A stretch of 64,000 nucleotides of DNA from Microglena sp. YARC. Taxonomy: Eukaryota; Chlorophyta; Chlorophyceae; Chlamydomonadales; Chlamydomonadaceae. The notes under the pieces are model-generated. The model did not search any database. It had not been told where the DNA came from and saw nothing but the letters and a program-made list of their open reading frames with translations. This document shows positions 15,706 to 51,779 of this stretch, in pieces. The translations under genes were made by a program, and so were the position numbers. Each line of letters begins with the position of its first letter. Position 1 is the stretch's first letter. Where the stretch lies: NCBI GenBank assembly GCA_022414725.1, contig CM039463.1:34231500-34295499 (forward strand), written 5' to 3'.

Positions 15706-15735
15706 AATGGGCGTTCCTGCTTCCCGGCCGATTTT
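15706..15735 (+). repeat. Left TIR of element C
   Basis: Thirty-base match to the reverse complement of 20459-20488. Confidence 0.9.
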
Positions 15736-16517
15736 CATTCTTATGTTTACTTTTAAGGGGTATTCTGATTTTTTACAAGTTCAATCTTATGATTAAAAAT
15801 ATAAGATTTCGGTCAATATGTTCAAATTTGACGAAATATGCTCAATTCGAGCTCATAAGAATGGATATAGCGAATCTTATGAGCATGAAACTGCCCTATT
15901 GTGTAACAACTTAGAAACACCAATTTTACATCTTACGTTTTTTAATGTAAGGAAAATGTGTAAAACTGGCAGTTATTGACCGGAATATAGAATTTAGCAT
16001 TCACGGCTTATGAAAATACACGTAAGAGTGGTTTATGAATAATATCATTAATGTGCCAAACGTCATTCTCTCCCTCCTCCCCCTACCCCCCCCTTTGTAG
16101 ACGGTGCATTGCCTAGGAAAGACGAAGAGCCTCAACTGCTGGTTTTAAATAAGTGGTGAGGAGTTTGGCTATGTAATAGACACAGTCGTCGCACTTAATG
16201 AATGGCTACCAATGCTTTATCATGACGTGCCACCAATGTAGTCACCACAGTTTGCGCACACTGCTGGATAGGGTCGTAGGAGGAATCATTGACTTCTTCC
16301 TAAGGTCGCTGATGTCAGCTTGCTTGCTTTGCAACATGCCTAAATGTAAGAATATCAAAGGGAACTTTAATTTAAAACTTCCGGTCGCCTCTTTGCAAAA
16401 CACTGATTTCCCGAAATCGGCCGCAAGGGATGTCATTGCAGCATTGAACGCATCCGTCAACTTTGCCGTGGGTGTTGTCATGCACCTTTCTGCTATGGTG
16501 TGTATGTGTGTGTGTGT

Positions 16518-16570
<53 letters not shown>

Positions 16571-16904
16571 GTAGTTTTTTATTTTTAAGACTCACCATGC
16601 CTCATCACTGTGACCCAAGACTACGCATATCGTTATATATAATGTTAACCAAGCGGTAGCCAAGATGACAAAAGCAGAAAAAGAGATTGGAGTTGTCGCG
16701 ACGGTTTTCAATCACATATTCCCCAAATGTGACACCCATAGTAGGTACTTGAGGAGGTATTTCGATCACGAGACTCACCATAACCTCTTCGTTGGTCCCT
16801 ACAGTTCGTATATAGCTCGATTTTTTTTTAACAAAGCTATAACCAGGAGTACAAGATTAGAAAACACGATTGGAGATGTCGCGCCGGTTTTAGCTGAGCT
16901 GCCA
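15736..16904. other. Element C left interior, no supported gene; GT microsatellite
   Basis: A subterminal AT-rich palindrome, CTTATGATTAAAAATATAAG, lies near 15785. A (GT)n tract followed by a G run occupies about 16500-16571. The frame 16198-16659 runs through that tract and is not credible as a gene at its C-terminal end. The same sequence, inverted, is at 45390-46555 in B. Confidence 0.6.
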
Positions 16905-17400
16905 GGGGCGGGTTACATCTAAAGCAGGTACTTGGGCAAGGACTTCAGTTCCGACATTTGCCACACATTTTTGGATGGACCCATGAGTTATTACATGTTT
17001 AGATATGGCTCAAACCAACCTGTAGCCATGAGGAAAGGGTCAGAAATCAATTTTCAATTAATGTATAGTTGGTTGGCTGAGCTGCTCCCCTAGGGGTTAC
17101 ACCTAGAGCACGTACTTGGGCAAGGACTTCAGTTCAGACATTTGCCACACATTTTTGGATGGCCCCAAGTGTTGGTATATGTTTATATATGGCTCAAACC
17201 AACCTTTAGCCAGAGGAACGAGTCAGAAATTAAGTTTGAATTAATTTATAGTTGGTTGGGTGATATGAGCCCCTTTGGTTACACCTAGAGCAGGTACTTG
17301 GGCATGGACTTCAGTTCAGACATTTGCCACACATTTTTGGAGTGCCCTAATAGTTGGTAAATGGTTAGTTATGGCTCAAACCAACCTGCAGTCAAGAGGA
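16905..17400. repeat. 184-bp tandem repeat of element C
   Basis: Three copies with period about 184 bp, each with a GCAGGTACTTGGGCAAGGAC block (near 16923, 17108, 17291), CATTTGCCACACATTTTTGG and TATGGCTCAAACCAACCT. The inverted counterpart in B is about 44870-45360. Confidence 0.85.
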
Positions 17401-17473
17401 ATGGGAGATAGACAGTAAGGTCGCGGATTCTACTGATCAATGAATCCGGTACCGCACCAGCCATCCAGCTCAC

Positions 17474-18103
17474 ATGCAACCACAATTTCTTTGTACGAGG
17501 CCGAAGGATAGCGACGAAATTAATTCACATCGCATCCCAATTCACCATTTCGCATCTCAGGCCCCTCCTACTAATAGAAACACACGCGTTAACCATCTAA
17601 GCCATAATATTTACCAGCAGGGAGCAGCACAACGTAGAACCGTAGTCGTCCGTGGACTTAATATGGCAACAACATCGCAACATATGCAAGCTGGGCGCAT
17701 AGCGCATCAGCAGGAGCAGCTTCGCGCAGTGTCATAGAACCAGCCTGGGCGAACAGCGCAGCCAGGACGAAAAGCGCAGCATGAGGAGCTTACTAGTGCC
17801 ACAGAAGCAGCCTGTGCGCACAAGCAAGAGGAGCAACCTGCTAGGCATCCTGCAGCGCAACCTAAGGGTGGTATAGCACCTAAAGTCATATTCGCTTCGC
17901 GTTGTGACAGCATCGGTGACAGCACCATGAGCCCGAAGGGTCTGACACCTATGCCTGCGTCGAATATCAAAGAATCGGTGGCTCCTCTTGTCATAAAGTG
18001 GTCGGATAAAAAACCTCCTGAAGGACCTAATGAAGCACCAGGCATTAAACGCAGTTTCTCTGAGCTAGTGGGAAAGATATCTCCTGCGCTGATCTGGATC
18101 TAG
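17474..18103 (+). pseudogene. Exon-like ORF of the B/C element family (one in-frame TAG)
   Basis: A plus-strand frame is open from 17474 to a stop at 18101-18103, apart from a TAG at 17735-17737. The first third is basic; the middle is Gln/Ala-rich with coiled-coil character; the end is better conserved. B keeps the same segment inverted at about 44110-44430 with the shared block IAPKVIFASRCDSIGDSTMS. It lies on the coding strand of B's gene and upstream of its exons, so it is probably a 5' exon of that gene. No known domain was recognised. B and C differ by one-base indels here, so the stop could be a sequence error. Confidence 0.5.
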
Positions 18104-18167
18104 GCACTCAAACTACGGCACTCAAAACGTGGAGCGCGAACTCCGCGAAAGGAAATTGGGATCCCCC

Positions 18168-19480
18168 GGGGGGGGGGGGGGGGTCGTGCCCCCATGCGTA
18201 CGGGGAATTTCGAAGCACTGAGGGGTTGGAGTTGGGGAGGGGGAGAGGGGGGATGCTCCCCAAGTGAACGGGAGGAATTTCGAAGCACTGATGGGTTGAA
18301 GTTGGGAAGGGGGAGGGGGAGGGGAGGGGGGAGGGGGAGGGGGGATGCTCCCCCACGCGAACATGAGGAATTTCGAAGCAATTAGGGGTTAGGGGTTGGG
18401 GTTGGGGGAGGGGTTGGGGGGGGGGGGGGGGGGGGAGAGGGGAGGGGGGGATGCTCCCCTACGCGAACGGGAGGAATTTCGAAGCAATTAGGGGTTGGGG
18501 TTGGGGGAGGCGGAGGGGGAGGGGGAGATGCTCCCCCACGCGAACATGAGGAATTTCGAAGCAATTAGGGGTTGGGGTTGGGGTTGGGGGGGAGGGGGAG
18601 GGGAGGGGGGGATGCTCCCCCACGCAAACCCGAGGAATTTCGAAGCACTGAGGGGTTGGAGTTGGGGGAGGGGGAGGGGGAGGGGGGGATGCTCCCCCAC
18701 GCGAACATGAGGAATTTCGAAGCAATTAGGGGTTGGGGTTGGGGTTGGGGTTGGGGGAGGGGTTGGGGGGGGGGGGGAGGGGGGGATGCTCCCCCACGCG
18801 AACGGGAGAATTTCGAAGCAATTAGGGGTTGGGGTTGGGGGAGGGGGAGGGGAGGGGGAGATGCTCCCCCACGCGAACATGAGGAATTTCGAAGCAATTA
18901 GGGGTTGGGGTTGGGGTTGGGGGAGGGGTTGGGTAGGGGGGGGGGGGGGGAGGGGAGGGGAGGGGGGATGCTCCCCCACGCAAACCCGAGGAATTTCGAA
19001 GCACTGAGGGGTTGGAGTTGGGGGAGGGGAGGGGGAGGGGGAGGGGAGGGGGGGATGCTCCCCCACGCGAACATGAGGAATTTCGAAGTAATTAGGGGTT
19101 GGGGTTGGGGTTGGGGTTGGGGTTGGGGTTGGGGGGGGGGGGGGGGGGGGGGGGGGTCGGGGAGGGGGGGATGCTCCCCCACGCGAACGGGAGGAATTTC
19201 GAAGCAATCAGGGGTTGGGGTTGGGGTTGGGGAGGGGGAGGGGGAGGGGGAGATGCTCCCCGACGCGAACATGAGGAATTTCGAAGCAATTAGGGGTTGG
19301 GGTTGGGGTTGGGAGTGGGGGTTGGGTTGGGGGGGGGAAGGGGAGGGGGGGGGGGGGGGGGGGGGGGTGCTCCCCGACGCGAACGGGAGGAATTTCGAAG
19401 CACTGAGGGGGTTGGAGTTGGGGGTGGGGGAGAGTGAGATGAAGGGGGGGGGGGGGGGGGTCTGCTCCCCCACGCGTACG
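18168..19480. repeat. G-rich minisatellite with TTGGGG runs and CTCCCCCACGCGAACATGAG dyads
   Basis: About 14 units of 80-150 bp, each with GATGCTCCCCCACGCGAAC, then GAGGAATTTCGAAGCAATTA, then (GGGGTT)n and long G tracts. The inverted C-rich counterpart in B is 42860-44045. The plus strand is strongly G4-prone. Proline- and glycine-rich frames here are repeat translations. Confidence 0.9.
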
Positions 19481-20165
19481 GGAGGGCTGTGCATGCACTG
19501 GGGTGTGGGTGTGGGGTGGGGGGCTCCCCTTTGCGTACGGGAGGACTGTGCATGCACTGGGGTGTATTGGGTGGGGGGTGGGGGGTGGGGGGTGGGGGGC
19601 TCCCATTCGCGTACGGGAGGAATTATAAACACTGAGGGTGAGATAAAGGGGGAGGGGTGTCTGCTCCCCCACGCGTACGGGAGGGCTGTGCATGCACTGG
19701 GGTGTATTGGGTGGGTGTTGGGGGTGGGGGGCTCCCATACGCGTACGGGAGGAATGTATAAACACTGAGGGTGAGATGAAGGGGGAGGGGTGTCTGCTCC
19801 CCCACGCGTACGGGAGGGCTGTGCATGCACTGGGTGGTGGGTGTGGGTTGGGGAGCTCCCCTTCGCGTACGGGAGGACTGCGCATGCACCGGGGTGTATT
19901 GGGTGGGGATGGGGGGTAGGGGGCTCCCATACGCGTACGGGAGGATTTTCGAAGCAATGAGGGTGAGATGAAGGGGGAGGGGTGTCTGCTCCCCCACGCG
20001 TACGGGAGGGCTGTGCATGCACTGGGGGTGGGTGTGGGGTGGGGAGCTCCCCTTCGCGTACGGGAGGACTAGGAGGACTGCGCATGCACTGGGGTGTATT
20101 GTGTGGGTGTCGGGGGTGGGGGGCGGGGGGGGGGGGGGGGGGGGGGGGGCTCCCCCTCGCGTACG
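19481..20165. repeat. CGTACGCG-type dyad minisatellite in element C
   Basis: Units contain two or three near-palindromes such as CTCCCCTTCGCGTACGGGAG and CTCCCCCACGCGTACGGGAG, separated by GCTGTGCATGCACTGGGGTG and AACACTGAGGGTGAGATGAA. The same units, inverted, are at 42085-42860 and 38990-40735 in B. Confidence 0.9.
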
Positions 20166-20458
20166 GGAAGTATTTACATACAATGTTAGAGTGTGTCTTA
20201 TTATTTAATTCAATTCGAACAAATGACTCCCCTATCCTTTTTTCTCCAAAAACTAGAAAACAATCTTATGTTTAAAAACATAAGATAATTCTAAGATAGT
20301 GAAGGAATTGTCTCTTTGTCGAAAAACTAGAAAACAATCTTATGTTCAAAAACATAAGAAGATTCGAAGAAATCCAGCAAAAACTCACAAATCAAGAAAT
20401 TTGCCTAAACGGTCTTTTGATTTGAATCATAAGATTCCACAAATTTAGAAGCATCCAC
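20166..20458. other. Element C deletion junction and right subterminal palindromes
   Basis: Near 20238-20246 the sequence switches from B's 42.04 kb flank (CAAATGACT..CCTATCC) to B's left end (TTCTCCAAAAACTAG). Two subterminal palindromes follow: CTTATGTTTAAAAACATAAG near 20267 and CTTATGTTCAAAAACATAAG near 20340. Confidence 0.75.
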
Positions 20459-20488
20459 AAAATCGGCCGGGAAGCAGGAACGCCCATT
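20459..20488 (-). repeat. Right TIR of element C
   Basis: Reverse-complement match to 15706-15735. Confidence 0.9.
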
Positions 20489-20590
20489 TCAGTTAGTCAT
20501 GACTCACTGACTCACTGACTCACTAACTCACAGACTCACAGACTCATAGACTCACTGAATCACTGACTGATTGAGACACTCACTCACTGA
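20489..20590. repeat. TGACTCAC satellite, middle part
   Basis: Continuation of the array broken by element C, with TCACAGACTCAC variants. Confidence 0.85.
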
Positions 20591-26961: not shown

Positions 26962-27378
26962 GCAGGACCCCTGTCCATCAACAGGGAATGAATTCTCATA
27001 TGTGGTTTTGGCTTGATCTAGCAGGAGGTCCATTTCTCTTCTGGCTTGTGCTTTTGTCAGGTTGCAGAGCTCATCATGGGGAACAGTGGGGAGCTGCTGG
27101 ATAGGGGCGGTGGAGTAGTCAGGATCTGGGATGAAGTCATGGGATGAGGTGGTGTACAAATCATCTTGGTGTGGTGAGAATTCCCCCCCATTGTCTGACT
27201 GGAGCAAGGATGGGGGGTTGGCTTGGACAAGGTCAGGCAGGTCATCATCACCAATGACTGGTATCAGATCTGGTAAACTTCTGGGGCTGCTGGCAGTTTC
27301 CTTTGGGATGGAGCAGCTGCCAGCAAAGTCATCATTGCAGTGGGCAGCTGGGTTGATCAGTTCTGGTTGGGTGACCAT
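26962..27378 (-). pseudogene. Fragment of an unrecognised ORF split by two transposons
   Basis: Open minus-strand frame from 27378 to the CACTA edge. It is acidic, with Pro/Asp-rich middle and a Lys/Arg/Glu helical stretch near its end. Removing the CACTA element and one GCA copy keeps the frame open for 51 more codons into 14844-14695. Its upstream end coincides with the CATT duplication of element A, so both transposons hit one older coding-like sequence. No domain is recognised; a retroelement gag-like ORF is possible. Confidence 0.55.
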
Positions 27379-27379
27379 T

Positions 27380-27405
27380 AATGGGCGTTCCTGCTTCCCA
27401 ACGGA
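27380..27405 (+). repeat. Left TIR of element A
   Basis: Twenty-six bases match the reverse complement of 51754-51779. The AACGGA variant at its inner end distinguishes it from B and C (GGCCGA). Confidence 0.9.
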
Positions 27406-28268
27406 TTTTTTATTTTACTGAAATCTTACGATAAATATTGTAAGATCGTTTTCGCAAATTAATTGATTTTGCTTTTTTGGTGGCTTTTACGAAAATATCT
27501 TACAATTTATTTTGTAAGATTGCTTTGTTGTATTCCGGAGAAAGAGACTATTCCCTTCAATTTCAATTGTAACATTGATTTGCTCGTTTGGAGAGAGAGA
27601 AAGTATTCGAATACAAAATCAATTGTAGAGGGCAGTCAAGAGGAAGGTGAAAGCTGTTTACAAAGTCTTGAACGCATTGCTCATAATTATTTATCTCACA
27701 ACTCACAACTCAACAGTTCAAAATTACAACTTAGTACTTACGACTCCGAAATCTGTACTTATGTGTACCTCATAATTTATAACTCACAACTCAGAACTTA
27801 TATGTACCTTATACAAGTCAGAACTAATAACTCCTAACTCAGGACTTATTATTCATAATTTCATACCTCATAAGCTCATTATGTACATAACACAAATTTA
27901 AATCCTGAAATCTGCAAACTGCCATCCTAGAATCCTGAAATCACTCAAAATGTGTGTTGGATGGTGCAAACAAGTACACTCGTGAAACTTGTGCACAATG
28001 CTAATGTTGCACTGCTGCCAACAAGTCCATTGGTGCTAACTTCTGCACTTAATGCTGACAGATCATGTGCTAACTGACGCCATGGTGCTACCTCATAAGC
28101 TCATTATGTACAACACAAATTTAAATCGTGAAATCTGCAATCCTAGTCTAGTGCACGATGTTACATGGTGCACTGATGCTCAACCAAGTCCATTGGTGCT
28201 AACTTCAACACTGGTGATGGCAGGTTTAGTGGAGCTAGCTTACTGACTCGCTAGTGCTAACTGGCACA
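27406..28268. other. Element A left end: subterminal palindromes and downstream non-coding sequence
   Basis: Two palindromes lie next to the TIR: ATCTTACGATAAATATTGTA AGAT near 27422 and ATCTTACAATTTATTTTGTA AGAT near 27488. From 27690 degenerate AACTCACAACTCA repeats follow. A CCTCATAAGCTCATTATGTA block is duplicated at about 27867 and 28092. No gene. Confidence 0.7.
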
Positions 28269-29176
28269 TTACTCGTCTTGCTCTGGGAACAAGTTGACAC
28301 GATACCCATGGAGGGCCCATTCTAACATCCTGGAACTCATCAGCCCTTTTAATGTTGCTGCACTGATGCAGCTTTCCAGAACCTTCTCCTTGCAGGCCTC
28401 GAACTCCTCGTCAGTCCAATGTGCGTTCTTCTCGCGAAATGTCTGGAGACACGTCTGTAGCTTTTGCATCATTTCCTCATTGGGCTCAGCAGGGCGGTCG
28501 CAAAACTCTGCGTTGATGTCTTCCTGAACCAGTTCCGCCGTCCTCGCCCTTGTTTCATCATCTGCATCAGTACAGGCTTCGAGACGTGATAGAATAGCCT
28601 GCTCCGTTTTTGCAAACATGTTCAAACGCCATGCAGCAGCCCCAAGCTTCTGAGTGATACAGTCCAAGCCAATGGCGTTCCTCCTCTCTAGCAAAGCCGC
28701 TAGCATGCCCGAGGCATCGCCAGCTTGCATGCACATCACATAGTTGCCAACGGAGCTAAGCTCCCGCACAAAGTGACGGAATTCGGCAACACTTCTCTTG
28801 CGGTATCCAACTTGTTGGGACTCATCGAGCAGCCGCTAATGTCGGGGCGTCCAATGGCACTTTTCTGTGCGTCAATAGGCGGTAGGAAGACCGTGATGGC
28901 AGCGGCAAGACCAGAAGAAGAACTGGAAGCTTTCGAGGACGGGCCCGCTTATCCCGCACCTTGATGCAAGATCCCAGAGATGGCGATGCTGGTGGAATGT
29001 GTCTTGAAGTCTGGCCCCATGCGTGTAATGTGGGTAAGGCGAATGTCAGCCACGCCAGCTTCTCTGAAAGCCACAAGGAACCTGCTGCCTTCCTCTTGGT
29101 TGGTGTACACGACCACATGGCACACTGAGGCAAACTTCCGATTCTGGCCTGCTAAGTCGATCAGTTTGCCAGGCAC
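28269..29176 (-). pseudogene. Element A gene 1, last exon (methyltransferase-like region, frameshifted)
   Basis: It starts after a CTCTTGCAG acceptor at 29176 and ends at the stop at 28269. The first 70 residues read VVVYTNQEEG then a VAFREAGV..HITRMGPDF block and align with B's exon at 36359-37394. Compared with B, about 25 residues holding B's IIDPSLGDD are missing. At least two frame changes occur between 28961 and 28770, and then the frame 28769-28269 is open (SGMLAALLERR.., an acid-rich helical tail). The segment 28269-28769 aligns with B over nearly its whole length. Function unknown. Confidence 0.65.
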
Positions 29177-38673: not shown

Positions 38674-38823
38674 CGTAGAGTAGCGGGTCATCAACTCGGC
38701 TTTAAAGTCGTCCTCCTCAATGTTGTGCATATCAAGAAGCTTCTTCAGGATGAACACCACAAAGCCCGCACTCACTTCCTTCTTGAAATGCTCCAATGCC
38801 AACTTGTATGTAGCGGCAAAGGT
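38674..38823 (-). CDS. Element B gene, 150-bp exon
   Basis: It lies between a TGCTCAG acceptor and a canonical GTAAGT donor and is exactly 50 codons. TFAATYKLALEHFKKEVSAG and a helical follow-up align with the first 50 residues of A's exon at 30472. A has no intron after this point, so an intron was gained or lost between the two. Confidence 0.7.
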
Positions 38824-38989
38824 CTGAGCAAGCATGTAAAAGGGATTTGTTTATTTTTGATCATGCTCAAATATACATCATTGCAATCCAAGTTGCATGC
38901 AATGGTCAAAATCGTATCCTTTGTCACCTATAGAACTATGCAAACTCTCCTACAAGCACAACCATCCACTTAGTGCATGCATAGTCCTC

Positions 38990-40735
38990 CCGTACGCGCG
39001 GGGGGCAGTCACCCCCCCCCTCCTCTCCCACTCCACCACCCCCTGTTAAATTTCACAACCCACTGCTTGCATTAAATCGACTGAGTGCAAGCAAAGTGCT
39101 CCCGCACGCGTGGGGGAGCAGACACCCCTCCCCCTTCATCTCACCCTCAGTGTTTAGAAATTCCTCCCGTACACGAATGGGAGCCCACACCCCACAACCA
39201 CCCCCACCCAATACACCCAGGTGCATGCCAGCCCTCCCGTACGCGTGGGGAGCCCCCACCCCACACCCACCCCCCAGTGCATGCACAGCCCTCCCATCCG
39301 CGTGGGGGAGCAGACACCCTCCCCCTTCATCTCACCCTCATTGCTTCGAAATTCCTCCCCGTACGCGTATGGGAGCCCCCCCACCCCAACACCCACCCAA
39401 TACACCCCAGTGCATGCACAGCCCTCCCGTACGCGTGGGGGAGCAGACACCCCTCCCCTGTTCATCTCACCCTCAGTGTTTCGAAATTCCTCCCGTACGC
39501 GAATGGGAGACCCCCCCCCCCCCCCCCACCCAATACACCCCGGTGGGCAATGCACAGTCCTCCTTACGCGAAGGGGAGCCCCCCACCCCACACCCACCCC
39601 CAGTGCATGCACAGCCCTCCCGTACGCGTGGGGGGAGCAGACACCCCTCCCCCTTCATCTCACCCTCATTGCTTCGGAAATTCCTCCCGTACGTGAATGG
39701 GAGCCCCCACCCCCCACCCGACCCAATACACCCCAGTGCATGCACAGCCCTTCCCGTACGCGTGGGGGAGCAGACACCCCTCCCCCTTCATCTCACCCTC
39801 AGTGTTTAGAAATTCCTCCCGTACGCGAATGGGAGACCCCCCCCCCCCCCCACACACACACACACCCACCAATACACCCAGTGCATGCACAGTCCTCCCG
39901 TACCGCGAAGGGGAGGCCCCCAACCCACACCCACCCCCCAGTGCATGCACAGCCCTCCCGTACGCGTGGGGGAGCAGACACCCCTCCCCCTTCATCTCAC
40001 CCTCATTGCTTCAAAATTCCTCCCGTACGCGAATGGGAGCCCCCACCCCCCACCCGACATAATACACCCTAGTGCATGCACAGCCTCCCGGACGCTGTGG
40101 GGAGCAGACACCCTCCCCCTTCAATCTCACCCTCAGTGTTTAGAAAATTCCCTCCGTACGCGAAAGGGGAGACCCCCCCCCCCCCCCCACAACACACACA
40201 CCCACCCAATACACCCCAGTGCATGCACAGTCCTCCCGTACGCGAAGGGGAGCCCCACACCCCACACCCACCCCCCAGTGCATGCACAGCCCTCCCGTAC
40301 GCGTGGGGGTGCAGACACCCCTCCCCCTTCATCTCACCCTCATTGCTTTCGAAATTCCTCCCGTACGCGTATGGGGAGCCCCCCACCCCCACCCCGAACC
40401 AATACAACCCAGTGCATGCACAGCCCTCCCGTACGCGTGGGGGAGCAAGACACCCCTCCCCCTTCATCTCACCCTCAGTGTTTAGAAATTCCTCCTCCCG
40501 TACGCGAATGGGAGAGACCCCCCCCCCCACACCCACACCCACCCAATACACGCAGTGCATGCACAGTACCTCCCGTACGCGAAGGGGAGCCCCCCACCCC
40601 ACACTTACCCCCCAGTGCATGCACAAGCCCTCCCGTGCGCGTGGGGAGCAGACAACCCTCGCCCCTTCATGTCACCCTCATTTGCTTCGAAATTCCTCCC
40701 GTACGCGAATAGGAGCCCCGCACAATCGTCGACGT
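38990..40735. repeat. CGTACGCG dyad minisatellite in an element B intron
   Basis: About 13 higher-order units of roughly 130 bp alternate CTCCCGTACGCGTGGGGGAG, CTCCCGTACGCGAATGGGAG and CTCCCGTACGCGAAGGGGAG dyads with CACAGCC, TTCATCTCACCCTCA and CCAATACACCCCAGTGCATG. Many one-base differences occur within the array. Confidence 0.95.
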
Positions 40736-41049
40736 TTATCTACATGACGTGCCACAATGGGTAACTTGGGTAAGCGTAATATTGTACGACATACATTTTA
40801 CTAAGACAATCACTAAGAAAATATAAGAAGATACATTTCATACAATCGACTAAAGAAACTAGAAAGAATCGAGTTGAATGCATTCGCGATTCGTGGTCGT
40901 CAATCTCCGAATCAGCATGGACAAGCTGCACCACCGCACGAGGTCGCAAATCGGCAACGTTGTCAAAGCTCGCAACTCTAGCGCGACCATTGAAGTGTAT
41001 GGGCGCGGCGGACAGTTGTGAAAGAAGCATGAGTTCAAAATAAACTCAC
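40736..41049. other. Element B intron remainder
   Basis: Unique AT-rich sequence between the minisatellite and the next exon. Nothing recognised. Confidence 0.5.
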
Positions 41050-41224
41050 ATGGCACGGAGATCTTTCGGCATGGCTTCATTGGCAGCGTCCTGGGTTGCA
41101 TCGCCCTCGTCCTGATCTGGGTGTCCATTGCCAGCCTCCCGATTGTTGCCTCCTCGCTTAGCCTCCTCTCGCTTCGCTTCCTCTCGCTTCCTCCTCTTAC
41201 TCGCAGAATCTGTTGCATGTCCAA
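41050..41224 (-). CDS. Element B gene, charged exon
   Basis: Donor GTGAGT at 41049. The frame encodes a KRRKREEAKREEAKRGG basic-acidic stretch and an Asp/Gln-rich tail ending NEAMPKDLRAM. It occupies the place of A's basic exon (33424-33502). The upstream border is uncertain. Confidence 0.45.
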
Positions 41225-41539
41225 TTGCGGAAGTAAGGCATGGTGAAGGAAAACGAAAAGGAAAGATCGCCGTCAGAGCGATGATATTCAAAGCGCGGTA
41301 CGTTGTGTAGCGCAACGATATTCAAACCTGCAGTACATTGTCGCTCCGTACAGGTTTGTTTCAAAAGCTCGACCTGTCGCACTCAATACGGTATGATCAA
41401 ACATTCACTCACAAAGCTGTCAGGTGCCTGCTTCTCTCTCTGCCTTGTTTCCCCTCCTGCCTGGGCTGAAACTCTCCGAAACCTGGAGTTAGCGTGGATT
41501 CGCATGCTCGGATACTCAGTCTCGTTTCATCGAGCTGTC

Positions 41540-41742
41540 CTCGCTGGAGGGACGCATGTGCGCAGTTGCGCAGGTTTGACCGCGATCCTGCAACCACCAT
41601 TTTTTGCATTGCGGCGGTGTAGTTTGTGCGGAATGCGGAAATTGCCTACGGGCATGTGGTTCTTGAATGCCATATCCTTCAGCTGTTCGGACGTGCAATC
41701 ATCGAGGGTAAGTTGTAGCCAGAAAGCTTCGGACCCACACAT
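41540..41742 (-). pseudogene. Element B gene, MCGSEAFW exon fragment
   Basis: The frame starts MCGSEAFWLQLTLDDCTSEQ and continues about 45 codons. The first 25 align with A's MCGADDFWSTLTLAGSKPAQ at about 34020. Beyond that the reading deviates from A and is probably shifted. Confidence 0.5.
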
Positions 41743-41929
41743 CGTGTTTGCAAGATTCAGAAAACCTTACCAGGATGTGGCGTCACAGTAGTTTTGGCAT
41801 TGGCGCCTCCTAAATTGAAATTGAAATTGTTACATCCAAGAAATATAAATACTCTAGGACGTAGATTAAAGGAACACCACAGCGTAAGCAGCAAGATAGC
41901 TGTAGTCACCATCGTTTCTACGACCTGCT

Positions 41930-42014
41930 TGATTTCCACTGTTAAATGCCTTTCGTCACATGCGGGCGTCCCGTCTCCGTACATCTTGGCATCGATGGTG
42001 CCATTCGAGTAGAA
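41930..42014 (-). CDS. Element B gene, exon starting FYSNGTIDAK
   Basis: Acceptor GGACGTAG at 42015. FYSNGTIDAKMYGDGTPACD aligns with the first residues of A's exon at 34215. Its downstream border is unclear. The break point of the deletion in element C lies only about 20 bp upstream. Confidence 0.5.
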
Positions 42015-42084
42015 GCTACGTCCAATAAAATAGGATAGGGTAGTCATTTGTTCGAATTGAATTAAATAATAAGACACACTCTAA

Positions 42085-42860
42085 CATTGTATGTAAATAC
42101 TTCCGTACGCAAGGGGGAGCCCCCCTCCCCCCCCCCCCCCCCCCCCCCCCGCCCCCCACCCCCCACCCCCACACCAATACACCCCAGTGCCATGCGCAGT
42201 CCTCCCCAGTCCTCCCGTACGCGAAGGGGAGCTCCCCACCCCACACCCACCCCCAGTGCATGCACAGCCCTCCCGTACGCGTGGGGGAGCAGACACCCCT
42301 CCCCTTCATCTCACCCTCATTGCTTCGAAATTCCTCCCGTACGCGTATTGGGAGCCCCCCACCCCCCACCCCCACCCAATACACCCCGGTGCATGCGCAG
42401 TCCTCCCGTACGCGAAGGGGAGCTCCCCAACCCACACCCACCCCCAGTGCATGCACAGCCCTCCGTACGCGTGGGGGAGCAGACACCCCTCCCCCTTCAT
42501 CTCACCCCTCAGTGTTTCAAAAATTCCTCCGTACGCGTATGGGAGCCCCCACCCCCAACACCCACCCAATACACCCCAGTGCATGCACGCCCTCCCGTAC
42601 GCGTGGGGGAGCAGACACCCCCCTCCCTTTATCTCACCCTCAGTGTTTTATAAATTCTTCCCGTACGCGAATGGGAGCCCCCCACCCCCCACCCCCACCA
42701 ATTACACCCCAGTGCAGTGCACAGTCCTCGCGTACGCGAAGGGGAGCCCCCCACCCCACACCCACACCACAGTGCAGTGCACAGCCCTCCCGTACGCGTG
42801 GGGGAGCAGACCCCCCCCCCCCCCCCTTCATCTCACTCTCCCCCACCCCCAACTCCAACC
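42085..42860. repeat. CGTACGCG dyad minisatellite, second array of element B
   Basis: Same units as 38990-40735. The inverted equivalent is 19481-20165 in element C. Confidence 0.9.
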
Positions 42861-44045
42861 CTCAGTGCTTCGAAATTCCTCCCGTTCGCGTCGGAGCACC
42901 CACCCCACCCCCCCCTCCCCCTCCTCCCCCCCCCCCACCCCCACCCCCACCCCTAATTGCCGTAAGGTCCCCACCCCCGAACGCGGCCTACCCAATGGGC
43001 AATTGTTTCGCTGAAAATTCCTCATGTTCGCGTGGGGGAGCATCTCCCCCTCACCCTCCCTCCCCCAAGCCCCCAACCCCTAATTGCTTCGAAATTCCTC
43101 ATGTTCGCGTGGGGGACTGCATCTCCCCCTCCCCTCTCCCCAACCCCAACCCCAACCCCTAATTGCTTCGAAATCCTCCCGGTTTCGCGTGGGGGAGCAT
43201 GCCCCCCTCCCCGACCCCCCCCCCCCCCCCCCCCAACCCCCAACCCCAACCCCAACCCCTAATTGCCTCGAATTCCTCATGTTCGCCGGCCGCGTGGGGG
43301 AGAATCCCCCCCCCTCCCCCTCCCCTGCCCCCTCCCCAACTCCAACCCCTCAGTGCTTTTCGAAATTCCTCCCGTTCGCGTGGAAGAGCATCCCCCCTCC
43401 CTCTCCCCTGCCCCCCTCCCCCCCCCCCCCCAACCCCAACCCCAACCCCTAATTGATTCGAAATTCCTCATGTTCGCGTGGGGGAGCATCCCCCCCTCCC
43501 CCTCCCCCTCGGGACCCACTCCAACCCTCAGTGCTTCGAAATTCCTGCCCTGTTCGCGTGGGGGAGCATCCCCCCTCTCCCTCCCCTCCCCAGCCCAACC
43601 AACCCCAACCTCACACCCCTAATTGCTTCGAAAATTCACTCATCGTTCGCGTGGGAGCATCTCCGGCCCTCCCCCCTCCGCCTCCCCCAACCCCCAAACC
43701 CCTAATTGCTTCGAAATTCCTCATGTTCGCGTAGGGGAGCATCCCCCTCCCTGGCCCCTCCCCCCCCCCCGCCCCCCCCAACCCTCCGCCAACCCAAGCC
43801 CTAACCCCTAATTGCTTTCGAAATTCTCATGTTCCGTGGGGGAGCATCCCCCCCTCCCCCCTCCCCCTCCCCTCCCCCTCCCCCCTCCCCCTCCCCCTCC
43901 CCCAACTCAACCCCTCAGTGCTTCGAAATTCCTCCCGTTCACTTGGGGAGCATCCCCCCTCTCCCCCCTCCCCAACTCCAACCCTCAGTGCTTCGAAATT
44001 CCCCGTACGCATGGGGGCACGACCCCCCCCCCCCCCCCCCCCCGG
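42861..44045. repeat. C-rich minisatellite with CCCCAA runs in element B
   Basis: Inverted equivalent of C 18168-19480: (AACCCC)n, long C tracts, TAATTGCTTCGAAATTCCTC and CATGTTCGCGTGGGGGAGCA. Frames over it are repeat translations. Confidence 0.9.
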
Positions 44046-44107
44046 GATCCCAATTTCCTTTCGCGGAGTTTGCGCTCCCACGTCCTGAGTGCCGTAGTTT
44101 GAGTGCT

Positions 44108-44640
44108 CGATCCAGATCAGCGCAGGAGATATCTTTCCCACTAGCTCAGAGAAACTGGCGTTTTAATGTGCCTGGTGCTTCATTAGGCAGGTCCTTCAGT
44201 GAGGTTTTTATCCGACCACTTATGACAAGAGGAGCCACGATTCTTTGATATTCGACGCAGGCATAGGTCGTCAGACCCTTCGGGCTCATGGTACTGTCAC
44301 CGATGCTGTCACAACGCGAAGCGAATATGACTTTAGGTGCTATACACCCCCGGCTTAGGTTGCGCTGCAGGATGCCCCCTAGCAGGTTGCTCCTCTTGCT
44401 TGTGCGCACAGGCTGCTTCTGTGGCAACTAAAAGCCTCCTCATGGTGCGCTTTTCGTCCTGGGCTGCGCTTGTTCGCCCAGGCTGGTTCTATGGACACTG
44501 CGCGAAGCCTGCTCCTGCTGCCTGCGCTATTTGCGCCCAGCTTGCATATGTTGCGATGTTGTTGCCATATTAAGTTCCACGGACGACTACGGTTCTACGT
44601 TGTGTGGCTGCTCCCTGCTGGTTAAATATTATGGCTTAGA
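44108..44640 (-). pseudogene. Element B copy of the C family 5' exon (frameshifted)
   Basis: Inverted counterpart of C 17474-18103. The frame 44427-44146 preserves IAPKVIFASRCDSIGDSTMS. One-base indels relative to C break both flanking frames. Confidence 0.5.
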
Positions 44641-45714
44641 TGGTTAACGCGTGTTTCTATTTAGTAGGAGGGCTGAGGATGCCGAAAATGGTGAATTGGG
44701 ATGCGATGACTCGTGAATTAATTTCGTCGCTATCCTTCGGCCTCGTACAAAGAAATTGTGGTTGCATGTATGCAGCTGGATGGCTGGTGCGGTACCGGAT
44801 TTCAGCTGGTTTATGATCAGTAGAATCCGCGACCTTACTGTCTATCTCCCATTCCTCTTGACTGCAGGTTGGTTTGAGCCATAACTAACCATTTACCACT
44901 ATTTAGAGCACTCCAAAAATGTGTGGCAAATGTCTGAACTGAAGTCCATGCCCAAGTACCTGCTCTAGGTGTAACCAAAGGGCTCATATCACCCAACCAA
45001 CTATAAATTTAATTCAAACTTAATTTCTGACTCGGTTCCTCGTGGCTAAAGGTTGGTTTGAGCCATATATAATACATATACCAACACTTGGGGCCATCCA
45101 AAATGTGTGGCAAATGTCTGATACTGAAGTCCTTGCCCAAGTACGTGCTCTAGGTGTAACCCCTAGGGGAGCAGCTCAGTCCAACCCAACTATACTATTA
45201 ATTGAAACTTGATTTCTGACCCTTTCCTCATGGCTACAGGTTGGTTTTGAGCCATATCTAAACATATAATAACTCTTGGGGCCATCCAAAAATGTGGTGG
45301 CAAATGTCGGAAACTGAAGTCCTTGCCCAAGTACCTGCTTTAGATGTAACCCGCCCCTGGGGGGGGCAGCTCAGCTAAAACCGGCGCGACATCTCTCAAT
45401 CGTGTTTTTCTAATCTTTGTCCTCCTGGTTTATAGCTTTGTTAAAAAAAAATCGAACTACATACGAACTGTAGGGACCAACCGAAGAGGTTATGGTGAGT
45501 CTCGTGATCGAAATACCTCCTCAAGTAACCTACTACTGGGTGTCTACATTTGGGGAATATGTGATTGAAAACCGTCGCGACAACTCCAATCTCTTTTTCT
45601 GCTTTTGTCATCTTGGCTACCGCTTGGTTAACATTATATATAACGATATGCGTAGTCTTGGGTCACAGTGATGAGGCATGGTTGAGTCTGAAAAATTAAA
45701 AAACTACCCCCCCC

Positions 45715-45745
<31 letters not shown>

Positions 45746-46556
45746 ACATATAGCACACCATAGCAGAAATGTGCATGACAAACACCCACGGCAAAGTTCG
45801 GATGCGTTCAATGCTGCAATGACATCCCTTGTGGGCGATTTCGGGAAATTCAGTGTTTGGCAAAGATGGCGACGGAAGTTTTAAAATTAAAGTTCCCTTT
45901 GATATTCTTACATTTAGGCATGTTGCAAGCAAGCAAGCTGACATCAGCGGACCTTAGGAAGAAGTCAATGATTCCTCCTACGACCACATCCAGAAGTGTG
46001 CGAAAACCCTGTGGTGACTACATTGGTTGGCACGTCATGATAAAGCATTGGTAGCCATTCATTAAGTGCGAACGACTGTGTTCTATTACATAGCCAAACT
46101 CCTCTCACCACTTATTTTAAAACCAGCAGTTGAGGCTCTTCGTCTTGCCTAGGCAATGCACCGTCTACAAAGGGGGGGGGGGGGGTGGGGGGGAGGAGGA
46201 AAGAAGAGAATGACGTTTGGCACATTAATGATATTATTCATAAACCACTCTTACGTGTATTTTCATAAGCCGTGAATGCTAAAATTCTATATTCCGGTCG
46301 ATAATCATGCCAGTTTTAACACATTTTCCTTACATTAAAAAAACATAAGATGTAAAATTTGGTGTTCTAAGTTGTTTACACAATAGGGCAGTTTCATGCT
46401 CATAAGATTCGTATATCCATTCTTATGAGCTCGAATTGAGCATATATTTCGTCAAAATTTGAACATATTGACGCGAAATCTTAATATTTTTTAATCAATA
46501 AGATTGAAACTTGTTAAAAAAATCAGAATACCCCTTAAAAGTGAACATAAGAATGG
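44641..46556. repeat. Element B right interior: 184-bp repeats, C run and subterminal sequence
   Basis: Inverted match to C 15736-17460. The 184-bp repeat lies at about 44870-45360 and the poly-C/CA tract at 45707-45748. A subterminal AT-rich palindrome is near 46480. No gene. Confidence 0.8.
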
Positions 46557-46585
46557 AAATCGGCCGGGAAGCAGGAACGCCCATT
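46557..46585 (-). repeat. Right TIR of element B
   Basis: Inverted copy of 35627-35655, followed by the TCTT duplication. Confidence 0.9.
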
Positions 46586-46677
46586 TCTTGGTAAATTCAA
46601 GGGGTCCATCAGGGTTGTGAGGTCCTTCAACCCAACCAATGGGTGGTGGTCCGTGGTGGCTCTCTCTCTACCCTTCA
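46586..46677 (-). CDS. Element A gene 1, upstream half of the exon interrupted by element B
   Basis: Minus-strand frame reading HHGPPPIGWVEGPHNPDGPL up to the B border. A TAG at about 46670 just upstream, within GGGTAGAGAG, suggests the exon begins there at an AG acceptor. It continues in frame with 35626-35402 when B is excised. Confidence 0.6.
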
Positions 46678-47707
46678 CCTGTTAACCGCATCAGCTACTG
46701 TGGTGTACGTTCCTCAGGTAAGTTTTCTGCTGCACGGACTTGTTTAGACATGCTTGTGACACCCTTTTGGAGGGGACATGCTACTGTTCGCAAAGCTTCT
46801 CAACTGAATTTGAAGGACAGAGTCCTAGGTTCCAACAGTCGGGGTTTCGCAGGCACTGCAGCTGGTTGTCGAGGCTTTGCGCAGGCACTGGCGCAGCTGG
46901 GTCGTCGAGGTTGCGCATGCTGGATAGCTACACCAGAGCGTAAAGGTTTAGGTTGCACAGGTTGCGGCCTAGGTATTTACCCGGGAACCAACCCTTGAAT
47001 GGGTTGTTACGAAGTTTGGAGAAAATGTCTCTCCGCGTTTGTTTACGACGTGAATCGGTTTGCGTAGGTTGGTTAGGATAAAAGTGGCCTCTTGGAAGCA
47101 ATTCACCTCGTTAAGGGTCCTTCGGCCGCATAATACCGACATAGCAAGCAAACTGATAGGACCTTTGGACAGAGTCGAACTATGGCCTCTAGTTTATTCA
47201 CGGTACTGCATGAAATACAGTCTTGTGTTTCCCTGGAATTGATTTCTTATACAGTATTAGCCCTTGCAAGTTTGCTAGGCCCGGTCAAGTCGCTGGTCCC
47301 GGTCTAGTCTGCTGGTCTGCGGTACAGATTCGATTCTTTTCCCGCGCCCGGAACAGTTGGCTGGTTCCCCGGGTTCCGCGATCACTCACTAACCGACGGC
47401 AGGCCCACTGTCGATTCCTTCTTATCATATTGGCAGGCTTAGTTTCTGCTTGAGGGGAAGGGGCAAAATGGAACGCTACCCCTTCCCCAGGAATTGGATT
47501 TGGGCATACACCACCTGGTTGAGCCTATGTTGCCGGTACCTCGACGTCCGACAATTAGATTTCGAGAATTTCCAGTGGCAACGATGCGATCGAGAACCAT
47601 GCCAAAGCCGATGAGAGCCGACACAGGTTACCAAACTCTGATACCGTGAATCAATTCGACAAGCTTATTACCTGTAAGTGCAAAGAACACATGTCATCTT
47701 AGTACTC
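46678..47707. other. Divergent intergenic region of element A
   Basis: It separates minus-strand gene 1 from plus-strand gene 2. GCAGGCACTG/GTTGTCGAGG motifs are partly repeated at 46850-46920. The frame 46639-46998 overlaps gene 1 antisense and is not supported otherwise. By position it could hold a bidirectional promoter. Confidence 0.4.
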
Positions 47708-47856
47708 CCACAGGATGTAATTCTTGTCCGCCACGACAAAATGAATTCGACGGAGGCTCGAACCTGCGAAAGGCAACGTCGATGCTACATCGAATTAAAT
47801 GCACTGGCAAGCAAGCGGGATCCCAAGACAGGGACAAGGGAAGTTGTGTCGACAAG
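47708..47856 (+). CDS. Element A gene 2, exon ending at a GTAGGT donor
   Basis: Plus-strand frame with MNSTEARTCERQRRCYIELN and KRDPKTGTREVVSTR, ending AAG/GTAGGT. Joined to 48025 it gives an uninterrupted frame (VSTR-ILGVDG). The 5' border is not certain. Function unknown. Confidence 0.5.
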
Positions 47857-48024
47857 GTAGGTTGTAATTTGAAATTTGAAATTGTTACATCCGCTGTGAA
47901 CCGTTTACTCACAAAGGTAGATTGTCAATAAATTTGATCTTGCGCCTGAAGCGCCTGATGCGCCTAAAAGATTTTTGAAATGTATTATGACTTTCGAACT
48001 TAACGATTCTTTTTGCTCGTTCAG

Positions 48025-48131
48025 GATATTGGGCGTTGACGGTTGCAAGTCATTTTATCAGGCTGCATCCGTAATCGGTTTTCAAAATGACATGGCTAGC
48101 GACATAAGTGGTCAGATCAAAACAACAGAGA
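48025..48131 (+). CDS. Element A gene 2, second exon
   Basis: The TCGTTCAG acceptor and GAGA/GTAAGT donor are both strong. The frame reads ILGVDGCKSFYQAASVIGFQ then NDMASDISGQIKTTE. It is open and compatible with the previous exon. No domain recognised. Confidence 0.55.
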
Positions 48132-48410
48132 GTAAGTTATCCGGATATTCTCATGTTTGGTTTACAGTGCACTTGCTTCCTCCGATTATGCTCGGCGACA
48201 ACAGAAAACAATCAGGCTCCGTATAAATGATCCATTCTACTCCCTCCCGATCATGCTCGGGTAGCATCTCATAACATATAAGCGACCTAACCTCGTTCCA
48301 TTGGACCCTGTCTAGGTTTGAACCTGCTGTGAAAGGGTGAGGAGGAAGAGAGTGCATTTCCGCAGTGTTGTTGAGGGACAATTTCAACGCTGCGATCTAA
48401 ATCTCTCTAG
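48132..48410. other. Element A gene 2 intron with dyads
   Basis: Contains CTCCGATTATGCTCGG (48180) and CTCCCGATCATGCTCGGG (48243), the same dyad class as in gene 1 introns. Confidence 0.5.
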
Positions 48411-48634
48411 ATGAGGTTTGGGGAGTCAATGCCGCAACCAGACTTCTTATGCTCCAAGGATCTAGAGAAGGAAAAATCTAAGGTCATGGCCCATTTTGAT
48501 TTTTTTACATTGCTGCGCATATTTTTCAAGGCAAGCAAGCTGTCTTTAGGTGATCATGAAGAAGAAGGCATGTTTCCTCCAGAACATTTATATCAGCAGT
48601 TTTGCGTAAACTATGGCATCTCATTGGATGGAAG
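48411..48634 (+). pseudogene. Element A gene 2, third exon
   Basis: CTCTCTAG acceptor and GAAG/GTGAAG donor. The open frame (DFLCSKDLEKEKSKVMAHFD, then a HFDFF..LLRIFFKASKL helix) is not the one expected from joining exon 2 at this acceptor, so a frame change or another acceptor is needed. It resembles nothing I know. Confidence 0.45.
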
Positions 48635-48730
48635 GTGAAGATTAAAAGACTTGGCAGCCTTTCGCCAAGTTTATGCGACGACTGCGTTCAAGTACCGAGC
48701 CAGACTCCTGACCACTACGTTTAGCAGCAG

Positions 48731-48962
48731 TTGATGGAAACTTCGTCAGAGTCAGGCTGTGTCACCGTTAATCAGATTTCCATTGTCGGCGTAGGTATGA
48801 CATCCGTGAAAAACTGTTATGAACAGTATCCGAAGCTCTCTTGCACGCATTCCGCTGATGCATATGGACAACAAGAAGTGACTAATCTTCCTCATCACGC
48901 CACTTCTCACATACAAAGAAGAACGCCAGGCATGGTTGAACTTCTAAAGAACACGCATCATG
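48731..48962 (+). CDS. Element A gene 2, fourth exon
   Basis: TAGCAGCAG acceptor and CATG/GTGAGT donor. Open frame with SESGCVTVNQISIVGVGMTS and a His/Thr-rich end. Family unknown. The following intron holds CTCCCGATCATAATCGGGAA at about 48996. Confidence 0.5.
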
Positions 48963-49102
48963 GTGAGTACAAATACAGCGCATGTTAGGACATGTCCTCC
49001 CGATCATAATCGGGAAGCATACACAGTATTTAAACTTGAAATGATTAATTTAAAAAATAATGCTATATTCTGACTTCGTGTTTCCTTTCTATGTTAACTC
49101 AG

Positions 49103-49673
49103 GATTATTACTCCAGGGAAAGAGGCTTCATTGGTTATTGGGTTTCTTGCCATTTTCTACTCGCAGTCCATCAATCTGACTATATCATGCTTTCCAACAT
49201 TTCTTCAACCGGGTCCTTGAAAGACAGAGGGGCAGCTTCCACCGTATTGTTCTTGCAAAATGGACAACGCGGCAAAGGACAACAAGAACGCTTTTCCATG
49301 TTCGCATACTTGTCCTTGTTGGTTGAGATGAACTGGTTTTGATGAAGTGTACGTCCATTCCTCCTCCTCCCGGACACACACATAGCAATCTTGACCAAAA
49401 GTACTCTGTGATCTGCTCGCAAGGGTTAAAGAACATGGAAGGTAAAACCCTGGACCATCTGATGGGCATTGTTGGTAACTTATTCAAGAGAATGGGCCCT
49501 TTACACAAGGCAAGACGTCGTGACCTTTATATGGTACTTCTCTCGCTGTCCTCCTAGACAACGTTTTACAAGTTGTTTCGGTCATTTGGCCTTAGCACCG
49601 TCAAAGGAGTGTTTAATCGCCGTTTTACACGCAATTCAAGAATAACGAAAGGTCGCCAACGGGAAATTGGTCG
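49103..49673 (+). pseudogene. Element A gene 2, fifth exon(s), broken
   Basis: AACTCAG acceptor; TCG/GTAAGA donor at 49674. Two frames alternate. The better downstream frame has MEGKTLDHLMGIVGNLFKRM and, after a TAG near 49555, TTFYKLFRSFGLSTVKGVFN. The latter is basic and helical. No known domain. Confidence 0.45.
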
Positions 49674-49977
49674 GTAAGAAATACTTGATATACTTGATAT
49701 TTACAAATTTAAATGCTACCAGTGTCGTGTATGTATACTGTCTGCACAATGCTCCCGATTATGCTCGTTAGGAAAATTGGGTGTGCCATGTCCTCATTGA
49801 TTACACACATGTACAGTCTTTAATATAAATTAAATGAATACAAAGGAAGTAGTACCTAGGACGCTAGGTATGTGTTATCCAAGGGATGATTTCCCGAGTA
49901 TAGTCGGGAGAATATTGGGTTGTGTCCTATAATGATTCACCTAATATACAATACATGTTTGCACACAACAAATGCAG

Positions 49978-50750
49978 GGGTCTATTAACAAGGAGTATGA
50001 CGAGTTCAGATGATCTTGGAGAGACATGGGACTATGACGCTGAATCCTATTTACGTCCTCCAAGGCTTCCCACTTGGTGGATGCACCATGTACAAGTTAT
50101 TTAAGGAAGCCCCAAGATCAAGAATGAAAGCTTCGAGAATATTGAGTGCATAACTGGGGGCGGCTGTTGGAAGAACTTTCAGAACGAGAAGCCCGGAGCG
50201 GCGACGTCACATTCGCAGGGCACGTGGTGATGGTCCCTGTACAAACCGCCGGTGACGACCGTGCAGGACCCGGTAGCTGATGTCCGTGTGTACGACACGC
50301 AGCGGAGGACCTTCTAGAACCAGCCGCAGCCGATGGACCAGCAGCCGATGGCATGACCAGCAGCCGTATGTGATGTACATCGCCGATGGCCATCCCATGC
50401 CCAGTCCTTTCAAACATATTGCCTGAGAAGCTTCGTGAAACTTGGAAGCCAGCAATAAGTGGTGGACTGATTTTCTCAACGTTGAGTAAGAGTTATTGGA
50501 GCATCTCACCAGATATAGCTTATGTCTGTGACTGGGAGTACCCGATAAGACGCAACATTTTGTCGTCTTCCATCGGAGTTGTCAGCAATATCCAGTCGTG
50601 TTCTGACACAGTCTGAGAAATCAATGGCCAAGCGTTTTTTGATAGCATGCATTGGATGACTTGTCCATGGATGTGTGTCAGACATTTTTTTACCTGCAAG
50701 TAACGGAGATTGCCAAGGACTTATGAAGGTCCGCACACACTTTGGAGACT
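49978..50750 (+). pseudogene. Element A gene 2, 3' part, broken
   Basis: An AATGCAG acceptor precedes GSINKEYDEFR, after which stops appear in every frame. Protein-like pieces persist to about 50616 (KLRETWKPAISGGLIFSTLS). I see no stop-proximal feature that fixes the end. Confidence 0.35.
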
Positions 50751-51753
50751 AATATGGAAAGGCCAGAGGAGAAGGATGTGTTGTTATACTTATATTTCTT
50801 CACAAGGGACGAAGTCCCTGGATTATAGATAAATAGCCTAACGAGCCACTACTGATTTGGTGTTTGGTCATTGTCTGCTGTGGTCAAGGTACAAATGGAT
50901 GACTCTAGCGGATTGAGAGGAATGGGACGTGGTGGACGGTCAAATCACTACCAGTGAATGAGATAGTGGAATGTGTGTACTTTAAAGCCCTTGTACTCTG
51001 GGCTCATGAAGGTTGGTGTACACTATAACACCACTAATTTACCCACAACTTCGGCCAGAAGATTGGGATGGACCACAAGCTTGTTGCCTATTACCGTGGG
51101 GGTTAGGAGTAAAACAACATGGACGGGCGATTATTCCCATTGACTGCATTTCAATTTAGCTGCGATACCCACCAAGGGTAATGAAGATCCAGAGAAAAGT
51201 AGCCCACACAAGCATGCTCCTAGCTGTGTCAATCCATTGAGAAGGACACCAGGGCAGAGGCTGTGCAATCGGATGGTAGACCATGCAGACATTGCTGAGG
51301 AGGAGGAGATGAGGAGGAGGAAGATAGGGATGGGGACATGGGGAGGAGGAGAAGGAGAGGAGGAGGAGGATCGAGGAGTGGGGGGGCAGGAGGAGGAGTA
51401 AAGATGTTTGACCACAATAGCCCCCCCGTTTTTACTAAATTGTGAATTATACTTACGATTTTTATTGTAAGATGTAAAAAGCTGAATTCTGCCTGCCGAC
51501 TTATAACGTCCGCTTTCCCTTTATTTCTTACAATTATAAATTGTTAAGACACGAAATTGATGTTTAGCACTTTTGTTTACAAAATATGGTATTTTCAATG
51601 TTGTACATTCGCAATCTGTACAGTTTCTCTGTCTTTCAAGCTCATTTTCCGAGCATATTTTGTCAAAATTTGACTACAATCTTACGATTTTATCGGTAAG
51701 ATTGCATTTGAAAGCCTCAAAAGACTCCCCAAAAGTGATTGTAAGATTGGAAT
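50751..51753. other. Element A right end, non-coding
   Basis: GA-rich tract at 51290-51400, then AT-rich sequence with palindromes TACGATTTTTATTGTA near 51452 and AATCTTACGATTTTATCGGTAAGATT near 51679 (written with its 6-bp loop). These mirror the subterminal palindromes at the left end. No gene. Confidence 0.6.
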
Positions 51754-51779
51754 TCCGTTGGGAAGCAGGAACGCCCATT
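51754..51779 (-). repeat. Right TIR of element A
   Basis: Inverted copy of 27380-27405 with the same AACGGA variant, which pairs these two ends and excludes pairing with B. Confidence 0.9.

Follow-up and report, generated by a model that had tools for sequence, protein, structure and literature searches.

Which kind of transposable element ends in the same sequence six times within 64,000 nt of a green algal genome? The stretch in question, here called the window, is from Microglena sp. YARC (GCA_022414725.1, contig CM039463.1, positions 34,231,500 to 34,295,499; 568-Mb genome with 2,390 contigs). A preliminary description, made from the window alone, had paired six terminal inverted repeats (TIRs) into three large elements, A, B and C, and could not place them in a superfamily. 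Here we report that these are, very probably, cut-and-paste TIR transposons with Sola as the closest named superfamily, in which a DDD transposase carrying the Pfam domain DUF7869 is probably the mover and which possess a second gene (gene 2).

The 20-mer AATGGGCGTTCCTGCTTCCC is present in six exact copies in the window, with none expected by shuffling. All six were at the positions and on the strands first described, and the pairing into three elements is confirmed. The inner TIR variants, AACGGA in A and GGCCGA in B and C, were found as claimed, as were the target duplications CATT, TCTT and TCAGT, the last of which had been called probable. The arrangement needed correction. Only B is nested, C is located outside of A, and the 24.4 kb initially assigned to A include B. 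The boundaries are as follows (a strand is given in this and the later lists where one was assigned):

15701..15705, left target duplication of C, TCAGT, 5 bp
15706..20488, element C, GGCCGA type, 4,783 bp, orientation opposite to B, delimited by its TIRs
20489..20493, right target duplication of C, TCAGT
27376..27379, left target duplication of A, CATT
27380..51779, element A, AACGGA type, split by B and 13,437 bp long when B is left out, delimited by TIRs and inner variant
35623..35626, left target duplication of B, TCTT
35627..46585, element B, GGCCGA type, 10,959 bp, delimited by TIRs and inner variant
46586..46589, right target duplication of B, TCTT
51780..51783, right target duplication of A, CATT

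The flanks of B, joined with a single TCTT, aligned unbroken at the joint to an A-type relative, L061 (93% over 407 columns), and to another relative, L010, at 79%. The insertion point is uninterrupted in these relatives; therefore, they display the site as it was before B arrived. This ruled out a single 24.4-kb element. B entered an exon of A after A itself had arrived. C and B are 88.5% identical over 4,743 aligned columns. C is an internally deleted relative of B and presumably non-autonomous. At their left ends (20241-20488 and 35627-35874), C and B are identical over 248 bp whereas most of the remainder is about 88% identical, which points to a recent gene conversion or to selection on the end.

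Next we consider the family across the genome. The exact TIR 20-mer occurred 307 times (155 forward, 152 reverse); the reversed control gave none. Some of the neighbouring plus/minus TIRs among the listed places, all on contig C1, were taken as a set of 16 pairs without prior inspection of duplications. Perfect 4-bp duplications flanked 15 of these 16 pairs, and the remaining pair had ATGC/ATGT. Two further elements had ATAT and CACA, thus 17/18 pairs outside the window were perfect at 4 bp. L007 and L008 have the same flank and represent a single site in inverted copies; accordingly, the independent counts are 16/17 for all pairs and 14/15 for the first set. The claim of a family of large TIR transposons, and the proposed check that TIRs should pair with duplications elsewhere, were both borne out. 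TIRs, target duplications of fixed length and, for B, an empty site are the observed products of transposition and identify the elements as cut-and-paste DNA transposons. Inside the shared 20 bp the two ends differ, with TTTTGT or TTTTTT at one and mostly TTTCCA at the opposite end, which allows the elements to be oriented. Long members, such as A without B (13.4 kb) and a B-type copy at C1:95354441 (L051+L052; 14,318 bp), have two divergently arranged genes, gene 1 toward the right end and gene 2 toward the left end. A further nested insertion, a fragment of an RVT_1 reverse transcriptase, was seen inside the A-type copy L060 (8094-8645).

What moves these elements? Comparison of A with the relatives L001 and L002 by tblastx revealed conserved plus-strand frames in the right half. 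In L002 these gene 1 frames read QMDNAAKDNKN...HFLPPGHTHSNLDQKYS and match Pfam DUF7869 (PF25273) with an E-value of 1.4e-37 and 129.6 bits at a cut-off of 26. In A the gene is decayed:

49074..51323, plus strand, gene 1 of A, frameshifted remnants of the DUF7869 transposase; the exons are open in the relative L050

A search of B and C for DUF7869 yielded no match; both keep a short stretch, about 70% identical to the A-type right half, upstream of the domain. Probably because of the decay in A and the missing match in B and C the transposase had been overlooked. The former statement that the genes belong to no recognisable family holds for gene 2, which has no Pfam match above cut-off, but was incomplete, since gene 1 lies on the other strand. 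Genome-wide, 129 DUF7869 exon matches were obtained from 51 scored candidates. A-type exons without stops exist, e.g. in L050; in the B-type L051+L052 gene 1 shifts frame once within the DUF7869 region.

A protein search with gene 1 identified 20 relatives, 13 from the EukProt data set and one from the hemichordate Ptychodera flava. The latter protein in turn had 99 matches, including the query itself, among them proteins from hemichordates, echinoderms, lancelets, molluscs, corals, a sponge, a ribbon worm, the charophyte Chara braunii and the liverwort Riccia. The animal, Chara and Riccia PF25273 proteins have in common with gene 1 a core in which D, D, D and GHTHxxxDQ are conserved; they are known here from protein sequences, the Microglena elements from DNA including the ends. 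The predicted model of the hemichordate relative P0020 (predicted local distance difference test, pLDDT, 85) has an integrase-like RNase H fold, and in a structural second look at this model all 50 of the 50 listed rows were DDE/D integrases or transposases. A D-D-D triad, D345/D429/D471 as assigned from the predicted model, is near-invariant in DUF7869. At the level of the family, as represented by P0020, the predicted RNase H fold and three acidic residues are those of a DDE/D transposase. Residues 650-744, in the C-terminal part of P0020, also match two PDB chains named Nipped-B-like protein, again in the C-terminal stretch (E 5.5e-11). Selection was estimated as the ratio of nonsynonymous to synonymous substitution rates (dN/dS) by a simple Nei and Gojobori count in 6 open copies of gene 2 and 10 of gene 1 (dS between types 0.8-1.1); because only open copies were compared, the ratios lean toward conservation. 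For a gene 1 exon dN/dS was 0.28-0.31 between A and B types.

Several points weigh against a DUF7869-driven, Sola-like transposon. Cleavage and strand transfer by the DUF7869 protein are inferred. The structure model is that of P0020, which is 26% identical to P0003 in the alignment, and not that of the element's own spliced protein. A plain Foldseek search with it returned no PDB match at E ≤ 0.001; the best integrase row was a simian immunodeficiency virus intasome (E 0.039, probability 0.54), and acetyl-CoA carboxylase rows ranked above it by E-value. Within B-type copies the gene 1 exon dN/dS spread from 0.14 to 1.31, copies with stops being excluded. The 5-bp duplication of C is an exception because 4 bp is the rule of the family, and it sits within a TCACTGAC repeat. 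Finally, the reference comparison was by description only and Sola is therefore best-fitting, not proven.

Gene 2 is a long multi-exon gene on the minus strand that runs to the left end; its versions in A and B are homologous:

28272..28835, minus strand, last exon of gene 2 in A, part of a methyltransferase-like domain (position of motifs X-I-II; compare L060)
28949..29254, minus strand, gene 2 exon piece in A, lacking the IDPCL stretch (motif IV position) kept in L060
29369..30484, minus strand, gene 2 exon in A
30783..31394, minus strand, gene 2 exon in A
31398..32222, minus strand, gene 2 exon in A, with a stop between it and the next piece
33573..34250, minus strand, gene 2 exon in A
35399..35626, minus strand, gene 2 exon in A, cut by B and resuming at 46590; uninterrupted in L061
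36362..37021, minus strand, last exon of gene 2 in B, methyltransferase-like domain, frameshifted against the next piece
36810..37421, minus strand, gene 2 exon piece in B with VIIDPSL (motif IV position)
37611..38180, minus strand, gene 2 exon piece in B
38156..38581, minus strand, gene 2 exon piece in B, frameshifted against the 37611..38180 piece
38650..38850, minus strand, gene 2 exon in B

The exon order is the same in L051+L052 (B-type) and L060 (A-type). In many copies the last exon has an open frame of about 350 codons; it had 120 matches, and nearly equal scores were common among the rows at 43-45% identity. Its dN/dS was 0.47-0.50 between A and B types and 0.33-0.60 within B-type copies, which shows that gene 2 is under purifying selection.

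None of the gene 2 pieces exceeded the cut-off in the Pfam scan (weak rows at E 0.012 to 0.16). A methyltransferase was suspected because of the motif order IDPSL ... YLVREYSNKGNWVMCLHTVDGSGMLAALLEGRSVVGLE. In a tblastn search against phages (46 records, E up to 10) no match was significant; 4 of the 15 listed rows fell on annotated methyltransferases at motifs X-I-II, all PF01555. In hhalign gene 2 aligned with phage N6_N4_Mtase proteins with a probability of 82 over 61 columns covering motifs X-I-II, and the score was 45.3, whereas 200 column shuffles did not exceed 24.8. Of the five comparators, four had been picked through the non-significant tblastn search. The unselected E. coli YhdJ scored 25.0 (probability 3.8) in the same register. 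PDB sequence and profile searches with gene 2 found no methyltransferase and nothing relevant, and the AlphaFold model of the domain (pLDDT 44) was too uncertain for a structure search. The canonical motif of N6/N4 methyltransferases is DPPY or SPPY. Gene 2 appears to share with the phage-type N6_N4_Mtase family (PF01555) the C-terminal order of motif IV followed by X-I-II. It differs in an altered motif I, in the absence of a significant single-sequence match and in motif IV, which is IDPSL in 5/5 B-type rows and IDPCL in one A-type row and not DPPY; in the comparators it reads DLPY, DIPY or DPPY. The resemblance is suggestive, and with moderate confidence we consider the C-terminal domain of gene 2 as methyltransferase-like and probably inactive. 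A ParB-like domain, suspected from the string GGYHSS alone, was not supported: a Pfam scan of separate pieces gave none, and two weak phage rows at E 3 were not annotated as ParB. One predicted protein, P0021, combines gene 2 residues with a stretch resembling trypsin (sub-threshold Pfam match, E 0.028), perhaps through an erroneous gene model or by genuine fusion to a host gene.

What might such a protein do? Mostly between the gene 2 exons, the elements contain arrays of palindromes. The dyad-packed non-coding sequence had been remarked on at the outset, and indeed CTCCC-N10-GGGAG occurs 49 times in the window against 0.09 expected in all of it. Each of the 49 copies is within an element; C contains 14 of them, A 15 and B 20:

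18454..20066, plus strand, 14 CTCCC-N10-GGGAG palindromes of C in G-rich repeats
32230..33221, 79-bp repeats of A between gene 2 exons, with CTCCCGA..TCGGGAG palindromes
34300..35334, 79-bp repeat array of A (13 copies) that contains CTCCCGATCATAATCGGGAG palindromes and is located between gene 2 exons
39099..42806, palindromes of B (CTCCCGTACGCG..GGGAG and kin) in C-rich repeats, two blocks

The palindrome cores are subfamily-specific: A has GATCATAATC and related forms, B and C have GTACGCG.. or the reverse of it, and the outer bases are common to all. In two fetched elements the palindromes were all inside (25/25 and 32/32), with just 4,338 and 92 bases of outside sequence; in L060+L061, where the right end was not reached, 20/20 were to the right of the left TIR. 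Genome-wide, CTCCCGATCATAATCGGGAG alone had 7,215 exact copies (3,636 + 3,579; control 0). Among the places listed, all on C1, its clusters were mostly spaced at 78-79 bp, and the cluster at C1:1717164-1721616 adjoins a DUF7869 match (C1:1715012-1716973). The location and the subfamily-specific cores in a shared shell suggest that the palindromes are recognised by one of the element's own proteins. We tentatively entertain gene 2 as this reader, i.e. as a methyltransferase-derived, sequence-specific DNA-binding protein, probably without chemistry, which would recognise CTCCC-N10-GGGAG and aid transposition or counter silencing. The hhalign score above all shuffles, the DPSL or DPCL in place of DPPY, the position of the palindromes inside the elements, both in the window and in the fetched copies, and the copy number of one form are consistent with this proposal. 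The preselected comparators, the low probability for YhdJ, the PDB profile search devoid of methyltransferases and the poor AlphaFold model argue against it, as does the location of some palindromes on the gene 1 side of fetched elements. Besides, the palindromes may be mere intron repeats, and their placement inside elements is known for the examined copies, not for all copies in the genome.

A second class of dyads is AT-rich. ATCTTA..TAAGAT was detected near the ends, at least once per window element. By position alone these are possible transposase binding sites:

27423..27520, two left subterminal dyads of A, ATCTTAC..GTAAGAT

To which superfamily do the elements belong? As described in a review, Sola has a DDD transposase, 4-bp duplications and some elements above 15 kb, and is reported from moss and metazoans (PMC10741241); Sola2 elements have AT-rich 4-bp duplications and an accessory gene, Fanzor1 (PMC3627910). 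The Microglena elements agree in the 4-bp duplications, the triad (from the predicted model), TIRs of tens of bases, large size and an accessory gene. They differ in that their accessory gene matched no Pfam family and in the palindrome arrays, which are unmentioned for Sola in the passages considered. The same passages draw no link from Sola to DUF7869, and the likeness is one of description, not sequence. By duplication length, triad and size, Sola is probably the best-fitting name. The original verdict that the superfamily could not be placed is softened by this agreement, with membership resting on description.

Alternatively, DUF7869 may constitute a transposase superfamily of its own, as yet unnamed, which resembles Sola just in duplication length and triad. 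We regard this as possible but doubtful. The word DUF7869 was in no paper of the literature searched (the papers listed among the matches to PF25273 or to motif strings were unrelated), the domain is broadly distributed, from hemichordates, echinoderms, lancelets, molluscs and corals to a sponge, Chara and Riccia, and no transposase family figured among the source names of the DUF7869 matches as shown, in which long names are incomplete. Yet 4-bp duplications, DDD and large size are exactly those of Sola as far as described (PMC10741241), and the range given there, moss and metazoans, is near that of DUF7869. An extended version, in which a separate DUF7869 superfamily reaching from algae to animals was joined here by a methyltransferase-derived gene 2 without catalytic motif that binds subfamily-specific palindrome arrays as a built-in targeting or anti-silencing system, appears unlikely to us. 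Among the literature listings no counterpart of the accessory gene or of the palindrome arrays was recognised, in searches that are unable to prove absence.

An assignment to Academ or Ginger is very improbable. The duplications of Academ, 3-4 bp, would be compatible, but general Pfam scans, run on pieces rather than on one complete intact element, turned up no helicase. Ginger1 likewise has 4-bp duplications and an integrase-like catalytic domain; as described, it targets CCGG or CCGT, its ends begin with TGTNR, and its transposase is close to the Gypsy integrase with a GPY/F motif (PMC2836005). Here, none of the 18 duplications outside and of the three inside the window was CCGG, CCGT or ACGG, and the ends begin with AATGGG, which ruled out Ginger1. 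That similar TIRs lie in repeats by chance or misassembly without any transposition, a thought prompted by the many low-complexity arrays in the window, is refuted for practical purposes by the empty site, the 17/18 perfect duplications and 307 exact TIRs against none in the control. A Polinton or virus was also rejected: Pfam scans of open reading frame pieces matched neither a capsid nor a polymerase nor any viral family above the cut-off, with only weak rows below it. On viral contigs no relative of either the gene 1 or the gene 2 protein was found, as 0/52 and 0/20 pattern matches were confirmed.

For the DUF7869-driven cut-and-paste transposon we propose the following sequence of events. 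A transposase produced from an intact copy would bind the TIRs and, as candidate sites, the subterminal dyads, and pair the ends. Most likely it then cleaves the two ends and joins the element to a target at a 4-bp stagger, which is filled in as the target duplication. The transposase gene of A itself is broken. B and C, without a DUF7869 match, keep their ends and may have been moved in trans by a transposase made elsewhere. Gene 2 may aid transposition or protect the element from silencing.

The surroundings are rich in repeats. A Ty3/Gypsy-type retrotransposon is on the minus strand at 4530-12277; reverse transcriptase, RNase H, an integrase zinc finger and an SH3_Tf2-1 match were recognised in 4530-8663, and the long frames up to 12277 had no Pfam match among those scanned. 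Around C there are a long GCACAC microsatellite (21163-21828) and TCACTGAC-type 8-bp repeats (15223-15700 and 21864-22825). A run of 1000 N at 59056-60055, a scaffold gap, is beside a long TCT-rich microsatellite (57437-58787). The ends of the window (1-2000 and 60001-64000) have strong and opposite GC skew, and two frames scanned there had no Pfam family match.

TIR transposons of this kind have been known before; new, as far as the literature was searched, is the assignment of DUF7869 as their transposase. This suggests that DUF7869, a Pfam domain with no function assigned and present in animals, charophytes and liverworts, acts as a DDD transposase; the ends and 4-bp duplications of the Microglena elements give the suggestion an anchor in one genome. 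The elements also combine a conserved accessory gene with subfamily-specific palindrome arrays in one transposon, a case that lends itself to experiment. Many of the DUF7869 proteins presently termed 'uncharacterized' could be transposon genes.

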